Under the pieces are notes generated by a model. That model saw only the letters and a list, made by a program, of their open reading frames with translations, ran no database searches and was not told the origin of the DNA. This document shows, one piece after another, positions 1 to 37,602 of a DNA stretch of 43,246 bases. The stretch spans positions 1 to 43,246 of IMG/VR virus record IMGVR_UViG_3300033141_006331; one strand, written 5' to 3'. The stretch is from a virus. The translations under genes and the position numbers were made by a program. Within the stretch, counting starts at the first letter, position 1. Each line of letters opens with the position of its first letter.

Positions 1-963
1 TTAACCCATTTCCATACCCAACCGCCATTCAAGGGTTTTCTCAAGACCCTTGCCAAGGGAGGTTTTCGGTTCCCACCCCAATATGGCTTTTGCCTTTTCC
101 ACCCGAAGGCAGCTCCTGGTTAAGTCCCCTGGCCGGGCCAGCTCTCGCTTGGGTATGGCCAATTCATTCGGAACATCTCTGCCAAATTTCTTGAAGGTCC
201 CAAATATGAGTTTATATAGCTCAAGGGTTCTGGTCTCAACGCCTGTCCCGATATTAAAATAATCTCCATCCCCTGCCTCTAAGGCCCTTAGATTGGCCTC
301 CACCACATCGCCCACATAGCAATAATCCCGGACCATACCCTCAGGGTCGTCTTGGAAGTGGTAAAGGACCGATGGCTGTTCATTTATTAAATTGTCCATA
401 AAAATGGCCACCACACCGGCCTCTCCATGCCTAATCTGCCTCGGCCCGTAAATATTCGAATACCGCAGTGTGGTATATTCGATCCCATACTGGTGTTTGT
501 AGTATGCCAGGTATTTTTCGGAGCAAAACTTACTTACCGCATAAGGCGATAAGGGCTGGGGCGGGTAATGTTCTGAGGTGGGATATTCCGTGGCCTCCCC
601 ATAAATGGCGCCTCCCGAGGATATGAATATCACCTTTCGAACCCTATGGCCCACAGAGCATTCAAGCAGGTTAAGGAATCCTTTGATGTTCACATCTGCA
701 TCAAACAGGGGATCGGTCACGGACTCAGGGACGCTGATCTGGGCAGCGTGATGGTTCAGAATGTCTGGTTTTTCCTTTTCAAAGATACGCTGCATTTCAG
801 AGGAGCGAATATCCACCTCATAAAATGTGGCTTCCGGGGGTACGTTTTCTCTGGTGCCACTGGACAGATTGTCAACAACTACGACTTGATGTCCTTCCTT
901 AATATATCCATCTACCACATTTGACCCAATAAACCCCGCTCCACCTGTAACCATAATTTTCAT
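1..963 (-). CDS. NAD-dependent epimerase/dehydratase (UDP-glucose 4-epimerase-like)
   Basis: Extended short-chain dehydrogenase/reductase acting on a nucleotide sugar, typically C4 epimerisation for surface polysaccharide. The 320 residues are complete; the stop codon is the first three bases of the window. The N-terminal Rossmann motif GGAGFIG is at residues 7-13, with Asp31 at the end of beta-2 for NAD ribose binding. The catalytic Ser115/Ser116 region and the YxxxK pair Tyr141/Lys145 are present, as is the family motif RYSNIYGPRQ at 167-176. It diverges from the cysteine synthase fusion across about 150 bp of non-coding DNA. The exact sugar substrate cannot be read from sequence; UDP-glucose/UDP-N-acetylglucosamine epimerase or a related dehydratase are alternatives. 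Confidence 0.9.
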   Translation of the reverse strand: MKIMVTGGAGFIGSNVVDGYIKEGHQVVVVDNLSSGTRENVPPEATFYEVDIRSSEMQRIFEKEKPDILNHHAAQISVPESVTDPLFDADVNIKGFLNLLECSVGHRVRKVIFISSGGAIYGEATEYPTSEHYPPQPLSPYAVSKFCSEKYLAYYKHQYGIEYTTLRYSNIYGPRQIRHGEAGVVAIFMDNLINEQPSVLYHFQDDPEGMVRDYCYVGDVVEANLRALEAGDGDYFNIGTGVETRTLELYKLIFGTFKKFGRDVPNELAIPKRELARPGDLTRSCLRVEKAKAILGWEPKTSLGKGLEKTLEWRLGMEMG

Positions 964-1170
964 AACTTCCCTCCCCAGTTTTTGATACGAACCTAACAGG
1001 ATTCCATCCTGCGGTCAACAAACAGTCTTTTCCTTAAGCAAGCAAGACATGTATTATCTTAAGAAAATATTCCCTTTTCAGGTGGGCTACCTACAAGGGA
1101 AAAATAAATTGAAATGAACCAAATGGTTGGATATAGTGACAGGCTTAACTTTGACGGAGAGCTGCATTAC

Positions 1171-3492
1171 ATGGCCAAAAAGTTCGACAACATCTTGGAC
1201 CTGATTGGGAATACCCCTCTTGTCCCGATTCAAAAGCTGGCTACCAATAGTCAAGTGCAAATCCTGGCCAAATTGGAGTGCTTCAACCCGGGCGGATCGG
1301 TAAAAGACAGGCCTGCCCTTTATATGATCGAAGAAGCTGAAAAAAGAGGCGAGCTTACTAAAGATAAAATCATCCTTGAGGCCACAAGCGGAAACACTGG
1401 TATCGGTCTTGCCCTGGTGGCTGCAGTCAAAGGCTACCGGATCCTACTGGTCATGTCCGAGTCCGTAAGCCAAGAAAGGGTCAAGATCCTCAAGGCCATG
1501 GGCGCTGAAATTCGCTTCACCCCTGCACGGCTTAGCACTGACGGGGCCATTGAATATGTTTACAAACTGGTACGTGAAGAGCCTCATAGGTATTGGCTGG
1601 CAGATCAATTCAACAATGAGGCCAATTGGAAGGCCCATTACCACGGGACGGCCATGGAGATATGGAAGCAAACTCAGGGGCAGTTGGATGTGGCCATGGC
1701 GACCATGGGAACCACTGGTACGCTTATGGGGATTGCTCGTCGTCTTAAGGAACTCAACCCACGTATACAGGTGGTAGGGGTGGAACCCTACTTGGGCCAT
1801 AAGATTCAAGGCCTCAAAAACATGAAAGAGTCTTATCAACCCGGGATTTTTCAGCGAGAGCTTCTGGACCGAATAATTCATATTGATGATGAAGAGGCCT
1901 TTCATACGGCCAGGGAACTGGCAAAAAAAGAGGGGGTGTTCGTTGGTATGAGTTCCGGAGCAGCCATGGCAGCAGCGTTGCGGCTTGCTGCTGAAATGGA
2001 CAAGGGCCGCATTGTGGTGGTCTTGCCTGACGGAGGCGAGCGATATCTGAGTACCCCCCTGTTCACTGTAAAAAAGACCTCCGGCATACGTTTTTACAAC
2101 ACGCTCACTCGCAAGAAAGAAGAATTTATACCCCTGGAGGAAAACCAGGTGACTATCTATTCCTGCGGCCCAACCCTCTGCCAATTAATCAACCTGGGGC
2201 AGTGCAGGAGGTTTGTGTTTGCAGATCTATTGAGACGCTACCTGGAGTTCAAGGGATTCAAGGTCATTTATATTATGAATGTCACAGACCTGGACGACCG
2301 CACAATTGAGGGAGCAGAAAAGGCCGATATGTCGCTAAAGGAGTATACAGAGGGTTATTATAAGGCCTTCATGGAAGACCTGGATAAACTCAACATCAAA
2401 AAGGCGACCCACTATCCAAAGGCCTCTGATCATGTTGACGAGATGATCTCCCTGACTAAAAAGCTTGTGGAAAAGGGCCTTGCTTACGAAAAGTTCCGCT
2501 CCATCTATTTTGACATATCTCGTGCAAAGGGATATGGAAACCTTTCAAAGATCGATCTTGACAAGATTCAACTGGGTAAAACCGTAGATTTAGATCAATA
2601 TGAGAAGGACAATCCTAGGGACTTCACATTACTAAAAAGGTCTACCTTAAATGAGTTGAAAAAAGGGATCTTTTATCAGACCCCTTGGGGCAACGTAAGA
2701 CCCAGCTGGCATCTAGAGTGTTCTGCCATTGCACGGAAATTTGCTGGTGAGACCTATGATATACATACCAGTGGCGTGGAGCTTATATTTCCTCACCATG
2801 AAAATGCCATAGCCATCAACAAGGCCTTAAGTGGCAGCCCACCAGCCCAATTTTGGCTGCATAATGAATTGGTGACGGTGAACAACAATAAAGGGGCCGA
2901 CTCGCAAGCCCCTGACTTACTCCTTTTGAGAGATATTCTAAAAGAGGGCTACACAGGCAGAGAAGTGCGTTATTTCCTCATGAGTCGTCACTATCGCAAG
3001 CCCCTCATATTTTCTTGGGCAAAACTGGATTCAGTCAAAAACACCTTGGCCCATTTAGACAGCTTTGTCCAAAAATTGCATTTCTGTGCCGAAGCCCCCC
3101 CGAATCAGGAAATTGACCAGCTTATCTATGATCTGCGCCATGGGTTCACAGAGGCCATGGACGACGATATGAATATAGCCGCAGGTCTTGCCTCTCTCTT
3201 CCATTTTATGAGACAGATTAATCGTATAATGGACCGCCACGGCCTCTCCCAAGATGATAAAACAAAAACGCTCAAAGCACTTGAGCGAATCAATACCGTC
3301 CTGGGTGTGATGCATCTGGAACCACACCAAATAAGCGAGGAAATCATGGCCTTGATCAAAGAAAGAGAGACCGCCCGAAAGAAAAAGGATTGGGATACTG
3401 CTGATACTATACGTAATCAGCTTCGGGATATGGGCATTGAGCTTGTGGATACCCCTGAGGGTACCATCTGGCGCAAATTGGACGAAACCTGA
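1171..3492 (+). CDS. Cysteine synthase fused to a degenerate cysteinyl-tRNA synthetase-like protein
   Basis: A PLP-dependent cysteine synthase (about the first 300 residues) joined to a full-length CysRS-like region. The frame is open from ATG 1114; I prefer ATG 1171 (773 aa) because it follows GGAGA and begins the conserved domain. Numbering from the 1114 start: PLP lysine K64 in SVKDRP, substrate loop SGNTGIG 92-98, MSSGAA 279-284. In the CysRS half, zinc ligands C351, C536 and H561 and the C-terminal tRNA-binding helices (about 740-790) are recognisable. The HIGH motif, normally HIGNAR, reads INLGQCR at 359-365, and the KMSKS loop reads KGADS at 593-597. The glutamate ligand four residues after H561 appears to be Ala565. 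The synthase half should be active; aminoacylation by the second half is doubtful. A role in cysteine or persulfide metabolism is speculation. Confidence 0.85.
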   Translation: MAKKFDNILDLIGNTPLVPIQKLATNSQVQILAKLECFNPGGSVKDRPALYMIEEAEKRGELTKDKIILEATSGNTGIGLALVAAVKGYRILLVMSESVSQERVKILKAMGAEIRFTPARLSTDGAIEYVYKLVREEPHRYWLADQFNNEANWKAHYHGTAMEIWKQTQGQLDVAMATMGTTGTLMGIARRLKELNPRIQVVGVEPYLGHKIQGLKNMKESYQPGIFQRELLDRIIHIDDEEAFHTARELAKKEGVFVGMSSGAAMAAALRLAAEMDKGRIVVVLPDGGERYLSTPLFTVKKTSGIRFYNTLTRKKEEFIPLEENQVTIYSCGPTLCQLINLGQCRRFVFADLLRRYLEFKGFKVIYIMNVTDLDDRTIEGAEKADMSLKEYTEGYYKAFMEDLDKLNIKKATHYPKASDHVDEMISLTKKLVEKGLAYEKFRSIYFDISRAKGYGNLSKIDLDKIQLGKTVDLDQYEKDNPRDFTLLKRSTLNELKKGIFYQTPWGNVRPSWHLECSAIARKFAGETYDIHTSGVELIFPHHENAIAINKALSGSPPAQFWLHNELVTVNNNKGADSQAPDLLLLRDILKEGYTGREVRYFLMSRHYRKPLIFSWAKLDSVKNTLAHLDSFVQKLHFCAEAPPNQEIDQLIYDLRHGFTEAMDDDMNIAAGLASLFHFMRQINRIMDRHGLSQDDKTKTLKALERINTVLGVMHLEPHQISEEIMALIKERETARKKKDWDTADTIRNQLRDMGIELVDTPEGTIWRKLDET

Positions 3493-3614
3493 CTGCCCTA
3501 AGTACTTTCGGAGTCTCTGGGTCTTGTGCGACCCTTTTACTACCTTAATTTATCCAAAGGGGGGAGGAGGTCGGTCATCGGCCCATTATTTACCTTGCAA
3601 ACCATTGGGGGTTC

Positions 3615-4004
3615 ATGTGGGAGGCTGAGGTGGAAAAAGACAAACCTTTAAAATGGCAGGAAGAGCGCGAAAGAAGTCGTGAACAGGCCCTGGCAAAGCA
3701 CCATGAGCTGCACAAGCTTTACAAGGAAAATCCATTTGTCTTTGAAATGAAAAGGAAAAAGGCCATTGAAGACCTGATAAACAGCGCCCAAGACCCGGAG
3801 CTGAGAAAAAGGCTTTGGGACATGCAACGGCGGTGGGATCAGAGAATGCGTAGCGCTGGATCCGCGCATAACCGCTTTATCCTGGCCCAGACCCTTTTTT
3901 GGGATCACTTGGTAAACGAGTGGGTACCAACCCTCCAAGAGATCCGCAATCAATTGCAAGGTCTGCATGGCATTGTATCCACCAAGACCAATAGTTCTGG
4001 CTAG
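3615..4004 (+). CDS. DUF3135-like coiled-coil protein
   Basis: 129 residues, highly charged and helical, with no signal peptide or membrane segment. The central region, from about residue 40 to 100 (FVFEMKRKKAIEDLI, then DMQRRWDQRM and a WDHL segment), matches the layout I remember for DUF3135, a family of short uncharacterised bacterial proteins with a conserved arginine/tryptophan helix. The start is uncertain: ATG 3615 follows only a GGGGG run. It lies about 120 bp after the cysteine synthase fusion in the same direction and could be co-transcribed. Function unknown. Confidence 0.65.
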   Translation: MWEAEVEKDKPLKWQEERERSREQALAKHHELHKLYKENPFVFEMKRKKAIEDLINSAQDPELRKRLWDMQRRWDQRMRSAGSAHNRFILAQTLFWDHLVNEWVPTLQEIRNQLQGLHGIVSTKTNSSG

Positions 4005-34518: not shown

Positions 34519-34769
34519 ACATTGGGGGACGCCAATCTAGAAGACAAATCGAAAGAGAGCTGGAGGCTTGCCGGCTTCGTTGTAGGCTCCTCATTGCGGA
34601 ACTCAAGGCGGAATATGCACGCTATGACCGACTCAAGGCGTCCTTGGCCCATTATGAATGTGAGAAAGACAGATTCAAACGATTGCGACTACAAATACTG
34701 GGTTTGGCGCCCTTTTTCCGCAAAGCCAAGGTGCAGTTTAAGAAATGGTGGGCTGTGCATAGAAGATGA
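34515..34769 (+). CDS. Small coiled-coil protein with TTG start (lysis-region)
   Basis: 84 residues; TTG 34515 overlaps the endolysin stop, so translation is probably coupled. Strongly basic coiled coil (SRRQIERELEACRLRCRLLI; KAEYARYDRLKASLAHYECE). The alternative frame from 34522 looks like chance. No hydrophobic segment is obvious, so it is not a clear spanin; function unknown. Confidence 0.55.
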   Translation: MNIGGRQSRRQIERELEACRLRCRLLIAELKAEYARYDRLKASLAHYECEKDRFKRLRLQILGLAPFFRKAKVQFKKWWAVHRR

Positions 34770-34798
34770 ATGCCCGCAGAGGATATAAGGAGGATAAC

Positions 34799-35308
34799 AT
34801 GCCATTACCAGCATTAGTAGGATTAGGTTTGTCGCTTTTGCCCAAGCTCCCAGAGATATGGTCAGAAGTAGCCAAGCTCTTTGGCAAGGAGCCGCCAAAA
34901 GGGGTGGAGCAGGCCAAGAAACTGGCCGATGAAGTAACCAACCTGTTTCAGCAGGGCAAAGTTCCGCCCGAAGTGCAGGTCAAATTGCAGGAGCTCATGT
35001 ACCAGCATGCCGAGCGCATCTACGAGCTGGAGATCCAGGACCGCCAAGGGGCCCGGCGGCGGGAAATAGAGGTGGTAAAGGCCACTGGCACCAAGGATGT
35101 TTTTTTATATTTTCTGGCCATGCTAGTGGTGGCGGGATTTTTCGCTTTATGTGCTTTGCTGATGTACAAGCCTCTACCCCAGGGCTCCACCCAGGCGGTG
35201 TTCCTGCTCTTTGGGGCGTTGGCCACGGGCTTTGGCTCAGTGCTTAATTACTTTTTCGGCAGTTCCAAAAGCAGCAAAGAGAAAACCGAGCTGCTGGCTA
35301 AAAAATGA
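34799..35308 (+). CDS. Holin (GTA/3TM-like family)
   Basis: 169 residues from ATG 34799 with a perfect AAGGAGG ribosome site; the upstream in-frame start at 34766 is rejected. An N-terminal hydrophobic helix (LPALVGLGLSLLPKLPEIW), a charged coil in the middle, and two C-terminal transmembrane segments (FLYFLAMLVVAGFFALCALL; AVFLLFGALATGFGSVLNYF) ending in a SSKSSKEKTELLAKK tail. This pattern fits GTA_holin_3TM-type holins that release the endolysin. Confidence 0.78.
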   Translation: MPLPALVGLGLSLLPKLPEIWSEVAKLFGKEPPKGVEQAKKLADEVTNLFQQGKVPPEVQVKLQELMYQHAERIYELEIQDRQGARRREIEVVKATGTKDVFLYFLAMLVVAGFFALCALLMYKPLPQGSTQAVFLLFGALATGFGSVLNYFFGSSKSSKEKTELLAKK

Positions 35309-35309
35309 A

Positions 35310-35594
35310 TTATTCCCACTTAATCACGCCCCGGTCAATGCCGTCTTGATAACAGGCCTTGCAGATAACCCGCCCTCTCCATTCTGTCTTTTCCTCAATG
35401 GGCAGGTCCTTTTTGCACCATTCGCACTTAAAGGTAGGAACATTGGAGACATCTTTGCCCGATAGTTCATAAAGCAGGTTGTATATTTTTTTGAGCTGTG
35501 TGGCTGTTTCCTTTGTGGCATTTGCGGTGCGGTGCAACCATACCAGTACACATATTAAGATAATAAGGCTAATGAGACCGAAGAAGAGTTCCAT
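35310..35594 (-). CDS. Membrane-anchored zinc-ribbon protein
   Basis: 94 residues on the minus strand, last gene of the lysogeny operon. One N-terminal transmembrane segment (FFGLISLIILICVLVWLH, 4-21) and a C-terminal zinc ribbon with CEWC and CKAC about 20 residues apart. It converges with the holin gene with one base between their stops. No family recognised; small membrane proteins in this position often alter lysogen envelope or exclude other phages, but this is inference. Confidence 0.7.
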   Translation of the reverse strand: MELFFGLISLIILICVLVWLHRTANATKETATQLKKIYNLLYELSGKDVSNVPTFKCEWCKKDLPIEEKTEWRGRVICKACYQDGIDRGVIKWE

Positions 35595-35609
35595 CCTAAT
35601 ATGCTTTCT

Positions 35610-36005
35610 CTATGATCCGCGAAATGAGTTCTCTGAGGCCCTTTTGATTCTGTTAAAAATACTTTTTACCATTCTCCCTTCATGTCCGAAATCACCCCAC
35701 CCCCACACAGTTCCAGCGCTGAATTGCATTATTGTCTGGTTTTTTCCCTTTGGGATAAGCCTTATACTCACATCGTCACCCCAACTCCAAAACGTTATAT
35801 GCTTTTTTGCGGCTATAAAATAATCAGCTTTGCTAACGGTTTTGATAGTCATTCTTTCAGTAGGCAAAATTTCCAATGTTTTTTGCCATACAATATCAAC
35901 AGGCGCGTTAATAATGTTCTCCGCTTCCGGTAACCTAGTTGTGGAGTATGTAGCGCAGCCGAGACATAGCAATCCTAAAAAACCAACGAGGAACAATTTT
36001 TTCAT
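35610..36005 (-). CDS. Lipoprotein, possible lysogenic conversion factor
   Basis: 131 residues. The signal peptide MKKLFLVGFLGLLCLGC ends in a lipobox-like CLGC with Cys17 as modified residue; the -3 position is Cys rather than Leu, which is unusual. The mature part has a small mixed domain (PEAENIINAPVDIVWQKTLE; TVSKADYFIAAKKHITFWSW). A good ribosome site AAGGAG precedes the start. Expressed with the repressor, it may be surface-active in lysogens. Confidence 0.75.
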   Translation of the reverse strand: MKKLFLVGFLGLLCLGCATYSTTRLPEAENIINAPVDIVWQKTLEILPTERMTIKTVSKADYFIAAKKHITFWSWGDDVSIRLIPKGKNQTIMQFSAGTVWGWGDFGHEGRMVKSIFNRIKRASENSFRGS

Positions 36006-36022
36006 ACCATGCTCCTTTCTGC

Positions 36023-36817
36023 TTACCTTAACACTTCAAACAGCTCCGTTTCCTTTGCAGTCACCTTGCCATCTGCCTCGATCAATAGTTTAGCTTTTTC
36101 TAAAAAGTAAAGAATATCATCTTGATCCATGTAACGCAGCCTCTCGACATCATCCAAAAAACCTTGCTTTTTCACCCGATGATTGAAAGCATATGCTTCA
36201 ATTAATGATAGCTTTGGACCCTCATAGAAATCCCCGATGACACCCACAATTACTTGTTTTTCCTCATCAACAAATCTCCTATCTGCCCGGGCGAGATAGG
36301 AAAGAATATGCAGAAAGATCTGAAGTTTTTCCAGCTCTGACCCCTCAAATAGGCTATATTTGTCGAAAAAAGCAGTGGGTGGCTCAAATATCTCCCCCGT
36401 TTCGAGGTCTACTAATTCCTGGATCCTATCCTCACGGAAATTTCGCCAGGAATTGCGCAAGAGACATAGCCCTTTTATATATCTGAACCCATCTTCAGAG
36501 CTTAAGATACTATGGATCTCCACTCTTCTCTTACTAGAATTGCCCCTAGAGTCCACGTAAACAAGCCCTGCCATCATATCAAGATTGCAAGCCAATGGCC
36601 TACACTGTCTTCGCCATCTCTCTATATCAGCCTCAAGGGCCGCATCTTCTCTTGTCAAAGTCGGTGAGGGATAGGCAGTCTCCACAGACAGAATTACTTC
36701 TGTGGCGTCATCACTTACCTGGCTGGAAATTTCGTAGGGAAAATAATCGATTTCTGGATCTTGCTTTTGACCCGCAAATTGCTTTAGCCTCTGTACTATT
36801 GAATTAATCCTTAGCAT
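36023..36817 (-). CDS. WYL/TerB-like protein
   Basis: 264 residues. The N-terminal half (about 65-140) contains VEIHSILSSEDGFRYIKGLC and WRNFREDRIQEL, a WYL-like ligand or nucleic-acid sensing core as remembered. The C-terminal part (about 165-262) matches a TerB-type helical metal-binding domain: ARADRRFVDEEKQVIVGVIG and LIEADGKVTAKETELFEV. Such combinations occur in stress, defence and tellurite-type islands. It is transcribed with the repressor and is a candidate phage-exclusion or stress sensor gene. Confidence 0.65.
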   Translation of the reverse strand: MLRINSIVQRLKQFAGQKQDPEIDYFPYEISSQVSDDATEVILSVETAYPSPTLTREDAALEADIERWRRQCRPLACNLDMMAGLVYVDSRGNSSKRRVEIHSILSSEDGFRYIKGLCLLRNSWRNFREDRIQELVDLETGEIFEPPTAFFDKYSLFEGSELEKLQIFLHILSYLARADRRFVDEEKQVIVGVIGDFYEGPKLSLIEAYAFNHRVKKQGFLDDVERLRYMDQDDILYFLEKAKLLIEADGKVTAKETELFEVLR

Positions 36818-36849
36818 GGTGATCTAAAAACTGATAAATATAACATTCC

Positions 36850-37377
36850 CTATGCGGCGTTTGATTCGGGCTCTGGCGTCTCCCGGGCCCCGGCTCTCGA
36901 CCGCTCCAGTGCCTCAATCCGCCTTTTTAGGTCCTCGATTTCCTGCCTTTGCCTCATCTCGTTTCGCACCGCACCGCTGAAGGCCTCTAGGTTGGCTATA
37001 ATAGCGTTAATCAGGCTTTGGTTTCCAGAATCGAGAACTTCCAATAACATCTCTATAGCATGAGATCTCAGCCTCGGATTATCATAGATGTTTATGATGG
37101 CATTCTCTTCGTCATTCGTAGCGCATAAGAATGCCTCGATTTCTTCTTTGCTGTGGTCGCTACAGAGCCACTCTACGTCTACATTAAAAGCTTTGGCAAT
37201 TTTAAAAATCGTCTTGTCGGGTCTATTAACGTCTGTCCTATAGGCATTCCTGATACCGGCTTTTTCGGCGAACTCACCTTTTTTAAGGCCATGACGAGCG
37301 CGAATGAGGTCCAGATTGCGAAAATAGATTTCCCATTCGATCTCCGACCACTTTGGCTTATTAAAAAAATTTCCCAT
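36850..37377 (-). CDS. Prophage repressor, HTH_3/XRE family (CI-like)
   Basis: 175 residues. The helix-turn-helix spans about 20-72 (IRARHGLKKGEFAEKAGIRN, then KTIFKIAKAFNVDVEWLC). A helical middle and a coiled C-terminus (RQRQEIEDLKRRIEALERSR) replace the usual S24 peptidase, so it is not cleaved RecA-style. It is the first gene of the leftward operon, facing the early rightward operon over an 87-bp control region. Its target operators are likely the CACGTNAAAT repeats. Confidence 0.85.
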   Translation of the reverse strand: MGNFFNKPKWSEIEWEIYFRNLDLIRARHGLKKGEFAEKAGIRNAYRTDVNRPDKTIFKIAKAFNVDVEWLCSDHSKEEIEAFLCATNDEENAIINIYDNPRLRSHAIEMLLEVLDSGNQSLINAIIANLEAFSGAVRNEMRQRQEIEDLKRRIEALERSRAGARETPEPESNAA

Positions 37378-37464
37378 TCCGTGAATTTTCTTCTTGACAG
37401 CACGTTAAATATATATTATCTATTTACCCGTCACGTAAAATTTGCAGCCTAGAGAGACATTCCC
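37378..37464. promoter_or_regulatory. Divergent control region between repressor and early operon
   Basis: A candidate rightward promoter has TTGACA (37394-37399), a 17-base spacer and TATCTA (37417-37422); the -35 is perfect, the -10 modest. Direct repeats CACGTTAAAT (37401-37410) and CACGTAAAAT (37432-37441) are 31 bases apart, about three helical turns, one covering the spacer and one downstream of the promoter, as for repressor operators. Promoter and operator roles are inference. Confidence 0.55.
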
Positions 37465-37602
37465 ATGCACAAAGTCATTATCAAAAACGGTCATCGCACT
37501 TGGTTCTTTCGCGATGAGATCGTTGAAATCATCGGCCAGGACAAGCTCGACAAATCCATCGGCTCAATTGAATTTCCCCCGGCTATGGAATCCCATTCAT
37601 AG
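37465..37602 (+). CDS. Small early protein (first gene of rightward operon)
   Basis: 45 residues, MHKVIIKNGHRTWFFRDEIV onward, ending in PPAMESHS. It is too short for easy family detection. It is placed where a cro-type gene would lie, but no helix-turn-helix is evident. The next gene begins nine bases after its stop with an AGGAGG ribosome site made partly by its stop codon. Confidence 0.5.
   Translation: MHKVIIKNGHRTWFFRDEIVEIIGQDKLDKSIGSIEFPPAMESHS

Follow-up and report, generated by a model that had tools for sequence, protein, structure and literature searches.

Repressor–WYL gene pairs recur in viral loci and include a candidate lysogeny operon encoding a WYL-TerB protein and two putative envelope proteins

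Prophages often place anti-phage functions that protect their host among the genes expressed together with the repressor, and the lambda operon has the order cI-rexA-rexB. Within the Rex system, RexA is activated by a protein–DNA complex and RexB is a membrane channel (PMC9311878). After DNA damage, PafBC and DriD detect ssDNA through their WYL domains (PMC11804915, PMC12340889), and nucleotide binding has also been proposed for WYL domains (PMC4012209, PMC9503650). The fusion of a WYL domain to a TerB domain is already on record (PMC4012209).

Here we describe a cluster of four genes in a 43,246-base virus record (IMG/VR IMGVR_UViG_3300033141_006331), the whole of which was analyzed and is referred to below as the window. 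The cluster encodes a repressor-like protein followed by a WYL-TerB protein, a lipoprotein-like protein and a membrane protein with two CxxC motifs. Like lambda cI-rexA-rexB, it combines a repressor, a soluble protein whose trigger is presumably DNA-related and a membrane protein, all presumably made in the lysogen. However, the window proteins match no RexA or RexB family (Pfam at E up to 10, PHROGs at E up to 1), the 94-aa membrane protein has one hydrophobic segment rather than four helices, and the window has an extra lipoprotein. Among named phages, Yersinia phage vB_YenM_201.16 resembles the window in that its WYL gene lies 14 bases behind cI (the order is cI, membrane-WYL, integrase), as do Acetobacter phage phiAP1 and Komagataeibacter phage phiKM1 in that the WYL genes in their immunity regions lie close to XRE regulators. 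Unlike the window protein, the WYL proteins of all three lack the TerB half and are not accompanied by a lipoprotein, and in vB_YenM_201.16 and phiAP1 a hydrophobic N-terminus is fused to the WYL domain; their genes are annotated as hypothetical, ‘WYL domain protein’ or ‘YafY’. The published WYL-TerB fusions have both domains in common with the window protein, but the passage that covers them (PMC4012209) lists the fusion and gives no link to phage repressors. Finally, the WYL domains of PafBC, DriD and Pif1 share an ssDNA-binding arginine pattern with the window protein; these are transcription factors or a helicase, whereas the window protein has a TerB-like half and no recognized DNA-binding domain.

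The window carries tailed-phage genes (terminase, portal, major head and tape-measure-like) and an integrase at its right end, while its left 4 kb (1-4004) resemble host DNA, encoding a DUF3135 protein, a cysteine synthase fused to cysteinyl-tRNA synthetase and, on the minus strand, an epimerase; for these reasons we consider it probably a prophage plus some host flank. The IMG/VR record thus includes bacterial DNA. A second record (IMGVR_UViG_3300033148_006747; G001, or L002 as a locus) is 99.8% identical over window 1-31254 and ends before the operon; at the other end it extends 190 bases past the left end of the window.

As originally predicted, all four genes of the cluster follow one another on the minus strand, separated by 32, 17 and 15 bases: the repressor-like gene (36850..37377), the WYL-TerB gene (36023..36817), the lipoprotein-like gene (35610..36005) and the gene for the CxxC membrane protein (35310..35594). 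The cluster stops one base short of a convergent plus-strand ORF (34766-35308) and is flanked on that side by late genes running towards it, which could be only weakly assigned, and on the other by divergent early genes on the plus strand, one of them for a CII-like regulator. Between the repressor-like gene and the first plus-strand ORF, which begins at 37465, lies a divergent region that, from its sequence, we take to be regulatory (37378..37464). Closely spaced same-strand genes behind a repressor are the arrangement of repressor-linked cargo, and the four genes would accordingly be co-transcribed as a lysogeny operon and expressed in the lysogen. A promoter scan returned sites no more numerous than in shuffled sequence, and the divergent region, when scanned with looser settings, showed no clear leftward promoter; nor were 11-base repeats found there, even when one mismatch was allowed. 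The lipoprotein gene is preceded by an AAGGAG ribosome-binding site, and the WYL-TerB gene has no clear one.

The 175-aa repressor-like protein matches phrog_8 (1.5e-10) and phrog_4 (8.7e-7), with a Pfam HTH_3 score of 21.4 bits that falls under the cut-off of 23, and Pfam finds no S24 peptidase in it. Two loci, L084 and L085, resemble only its HTH part.

For the 264-aa protein, the original prediction had named both WYL-like and TerB-like regions. Pfam places a WYL domain (PF13280) at residues 86-135 with a score over the cut-off (7.8e-7; 29.4 bits against 21.8), and that part of the assignment stands. The N-terminal HTH that precedes WYL in proteins of the PafBC, DriD and BrxR type is absent: Pfam gives WYL alone, and NCBIfam and PHROGs give no HTH. 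The TerB part holds only by way of six viral relatives: Pfam TerB (PF05099) gave no direct match to the window protein at E up to 10, but with an E limit of 1 it matched six of the seven full-length WYL-TerB proteins that we aligned (best 3.8e-9), the seventh being the window protein itself. Because the relatives match the family and the window protein does not do so directly, its C-terminal half appears to be TerB-like by descent rather than a strict member of the TerB family. The TerB structures 2ou3, 2h5n and 2jxu match the WYL-TerB profile weakly (E 0.017-0.1). Single-sequence structure models were too poor for use (mean pLDDT 44 and 42), and the fold search yielded nothing usable. Ter partners (TerC, TerD or other) were not found among the four genes or in the part of the remaining window that was scanned.

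The relatives come from a set of 59 viral WYL loci, found with patterns derived from a four-protein WYL alignment and merged into 41 clusters by shared 4-mers. The C-terminal half matches in seven of these loci, which form six clusters (L152 with L153, L158, L161, L163, L164 and L178). Taking one protein per cluster, they are 23-28% identical to the window protein, and in L163, L152 and L158 the tblastn alignment stops no more than one residue short of its end. Viral-contig scans with the whole protein and with the TerB half alone found no relatives, and of 30 virus records chosen by capsid similarity, many of them fragments and some short, not one matched it (0/30). When loci were pooled for tblastn, with pieces of 24 of these 30 records (G001 plus 23 others), the WYL protein gave 8 matches, of which the 6 listed were all to named phage or plasmid records; the same search found no relative of the window repressor or of the zinc-type CxxC protein. 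No match in the phage and plasmid collections spanned 80% of a WYL-TerB query. Among 396 Acidobacteriota genomes (not known to be the group of the host), the window protein had 4 matches, and the 3 read in frame are HTH-WYL regulators by eye; the WYL-TerB profile had 14, none reaching beyond model position 153 of 265, so that TerB is covered in none. The genome-contig matches L086 and L087 were rejected as chance matches to a thioredoxin-like protein, and L148 as a chance match to a repeat protein.

The best solved structures for the WYL-TerB profile are PafBC (6sj9), PafC (7p5x) and 8bnv (E 5.6e-7 to 1.4e-6). We infer that 8bnv is the Pif1 of PMC9964779, whose crystals held a truncated core, because the residue numbers agree. 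In Pif1, R464, R491, R495, R498 and R501 are modelled on ssDNA (PMC9964779). R97, R121, R125, R128 and R131 of the window protein align with these five and are invariant in 7/7 WYL-TerB proteins. Similarly, the PafB variants R211A/R214A, R181A and R181A/R204A/R208A lose ssDNA binding (PMC11804915), and the 4-3-3 spacing of PafB R204, R208, R211 and R214 equals that in the window protein. Across the 41 WYL clusters, R97 is kept in 40 (the other has a gap) and R121 in 28, while R125, R128 and R131 are kept in 41/41, one of the two search patterns having contained these residues. From this pattern, single-stranded nucleic acid is the most likely ligand of the WYL barrel, and nucleotides are possible ones.

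Of the two putative envelope proteins, the 131-aa one has a hydrophobic start ending in LCLGC, which by our reading would be a lipobox that is non-canonical at position -3; it matches phrog_19323 (4.1e-5) and, below the cut-off, DUF1499 (0.065). The N-terminus of the 94-aa protein is hydrophobic (mean hydropathy up to 2.74); the protein has a CxxC-17-CxxC arrangement, and its matches to LIM, zf-FCS and PP0621 are all below cut-off. Viral-contig scans with either protein found no relatives, and tblastn across the 59 WYL loci found no relative of either or of the window repressor; none of these loci showed the three-gene set, a check suggested together with the original prediction. In the pooled loci, the lipoprotein had a single tblastn match, to Klebsiella phage 2 LV-2017, where an unannotated ORF (L088:5977-6390) resembles it without the hydrophobic start and lies immediately before the tape-measure gene. 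A lipobox scan gave 4/313 ORFs near WYL genes versus 14/1752 others. Inspection by eye left just the one in L164 as a clear lipoprotein, which makes lipoproteins no regular partner of WYL. L164 is also the only one of the six WYL-TerB clusters with a lipoprotein gene within the operon, and that protein has no sequence relation to the window lipoprotein.

The position of the WYL gene recurs where the envelope genes do not. A same-strand repressor lies upstream of the WYL-TerB gene in five of the six relative clusters: in three it is adjacent, in L164 one gene intervenes and in L163 two do. In L152 the repressor is separated from the WYL-TerB gene by 77 bases, in L158 an S24 repressor is separated from it by 10 bases (depending on the chosen start), and in L178 an S24 repressor is separated from it by 127 bases. 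The order in L164 is repressor, lipoprotein, WYL-TerB, and L163 (2596-5606) has an HTH gene, a weakly HipA-like protein (below cut-off), a 292-aa protein and WYL-TerB in a row; L161 is the sole cluster of the six with no same-strand repressor upstream. The repressors of L152 and L164 have no phrog_4 match at 0.001 and match Phage_CI_repr and phrog_12107 instead, whereas those of L158 and L178 match Pfam S24, and further repressors before WYL genes carry the S24 signature by motif. In L178, the genes after WYL-TerB oppose it, among them those for an endolysin and a holin (L178:2700-3546), a layout similar to that of the window.

For the 41 clusters as a whole, we collected the same-strand ORFs of at least 60 aa that end no more than 400 bases upstream of the WYL gene (62 ORFs from 40 clusters, since L174 has no upstream ORF by this rule) and, as a control, those that start no more than 400 bases downstream (54 ORFs from 37 clusters). 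Counting per ORF and family, the repressor family phrog_4 was matched by 25/62 upstream versus 2/54 downstream ORFs (Fisher p 1.5e-6). For phrog_8 the counts were 23/62 and 6/54, so that the downstream control contains regulators too; the integrase family phrog_1 was matched by 6/54 downstream ORFs. The ORF caller is crude, and in GC-rich loci it chose antisense frames; by eye, a repressor-like HTH gene lies just upstream in about 25 of the 41 clusters (counting L164, with its one gene between). Thus, of the gene order proposed for the window, a repressor followed by WYL or WYL-TerB recurs beyond chance but the full four-gene set does not, and, judged by gene order, the recurrent core is repressor plus WYL. 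WYL genes are also found outside lysogeny operons, as in two P2-like phages where they lie near ogr, and lytic-type Stenotrophomonas phages carry WYL-only proteins. In Stenotrophomonas phage Stm18 (L089:4004-4213), a 69-aa protein that is hardly more than a WYL domain is encoded directly before the primase gene.

Most WYL proteins of the set appear to carry their own membrane anchor: in 32 of 41 a hydrophobic segment begins within the first 80 residues, compared with a mean of 4.15 and a maximum of 10 in 200 rounds of shuffling. The window WYL-TerB protein has no such N-terminal segment, and its operon encodes a separate membrane protein and a lipoprotein; these could replace the fused anchor. 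A Pfam scan of ten neighboring proteins chosen by eye found a ThsB-type TIR (2.4e-16) in L173 (3660-4890), where a repressor-like gene, membrane-WYL and TIR follow each other 4 and 24 bases apart, and an FRG-domain protein (1.3e-19) in L156 (2279-5198), between an HTH gene (by eye) and membrane-WYL. The remainder were DUF3644 in L171, DUF4238 in L183, the WYL protein of L188 and five proteins without a family. This eye-chosen sample leans towards conflict functions.

Our best explanation, which we hold tentatively and at somewhat short of an even chance, is that the operon encodes a Rex-like, lysogen-expressed nucleic-acid sensor that is coupled to the membrane and excludes other phages, with co-transcription, the ligand, the coupling and the phenotype all being proposals; the original prediction had proposed superinfection exclusion or lysogenic conversion as a candidate function. 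The cargo behind the repressor gene would be produced in the lysogen, with the WYL-TerB protein as a cytoplasmic sensor that is inactive until a second phage replicates and ssDNA, or some related signal, accumulates. The WYL barrel would bind single-stranded nucleic acid (ssDNA in the characterized WYL domains closest by profile), and binding would alter the TerB half and so signal to a membrane partner: in the window the co-encoded CxxC protein and lipoprotein, in most relatives the hydrophobic segment within the WYL protein itself. The superinfected cell would then be arrested or the other phage excluded, a logic like that of lambda cI-rexA-rexB with unrelated parts. We count in favor of this explanation the 15-32 base spacing, the recurrent repressor–WYL order, the hydrophobic N-termini, the arginines and the defence-type genes in L173 and L156, and against it the envelope genes without relatives in WYL loci, L161, the WYL genes outside lysogeny operons, the retention of R121 in only 28 of 41 clusters, the choice of neighbors by eye and the lack of a RexA or RexB match.

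A first alternative is a sensor of DNA damage that acts on lysogeny, in which the ssDNA-bound WYL-TerB protein weakens a repressor that has no self-cleaving domain and so provides a route to induction. The damage sensing of PafBC and DriD, the window repressor without an S24 match and the frequent placement of the WYL gene directly behind the repressor all fit. However, several repressors before WYL genes, such as those of L158 and L178, have the S24 signature, so WYL is no replacement for self-cleavage, and most of the WYL proteins in the set look as if they sit in the membrane, which is awkward for action on a DNA-bound repressor; we regard this route as unlikely. About equally unlikely, in our view, is that the three genes are loose lysogenic-conversion cargo, expressed together but with no function in common; a stress sensor next to unrelated envelope proteins would be an example. 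That the envelope genes are not conserved partners, that Klebsiella phage 2 LV-2017 is alone in having a protein similar to the lipoprotein, there encoded between tail genes, and that the genes behind the repressor differ among relatives would all be expected of such cargo, but the tight spacing and the repeated presence of WYL in this slot call for a function of at least the repressor–WYL pair. The ThsB-type TIR gene 24 bases behind membrane-WYL in L173, together with the nucleotide binding proposed for WYL domains, raises the further alternative that WYL senses not ssDNA but a nucleotide signal from an enzyme, TIR-like or other, as one arm of a signalling defence system. With no signal-making enzyme recognized among the four genes, a single TIR case among the inspected neighbors and an arginine set that matches the ssDNA binders, we think this quite improbable.

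The Rex-like explanation can be extended beyond the window, although we are rather doubtful of the extension: repressor-linked WYL genes would form a widespread, unnamed class of prophage modules, ssDNA- or nucleotide-gated sensors either fused to an anchor or provided with separate envelope partners, that perform the role of lambda Rex using unrelated proteins in many temperate phages, the window WYL-TerB operon being a form with the membrane part in separate genes. The WYL-TerB fusion and repressor-linked cargo are already known, and the recurrent repressor–WYL pairing looks new: a search of mostly non-subscription papers on WYL domains and phages yielded no description of such a module. An ssDNA-type arginine sensor that recurs behind the repressor, mostly with a hydrophobic N-terminus, offers a testable route by which a resident phage might detect the replication of an invader; WYL domains would gain a role beyond transcription factors, and the pairing hints at a little-noticed way in which a resident virus protects its host or senses stress.

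TerB is not the only kind of C-terminal half in the set. That of the WYL protein in L188 (4773-5465) looks BRCT-like (Pfam BRCT 0.0026, below cut-off), and by eye similar BRCT-like C-terminal halves are present in the WYL proteins of L196, L200-L203 and L206.
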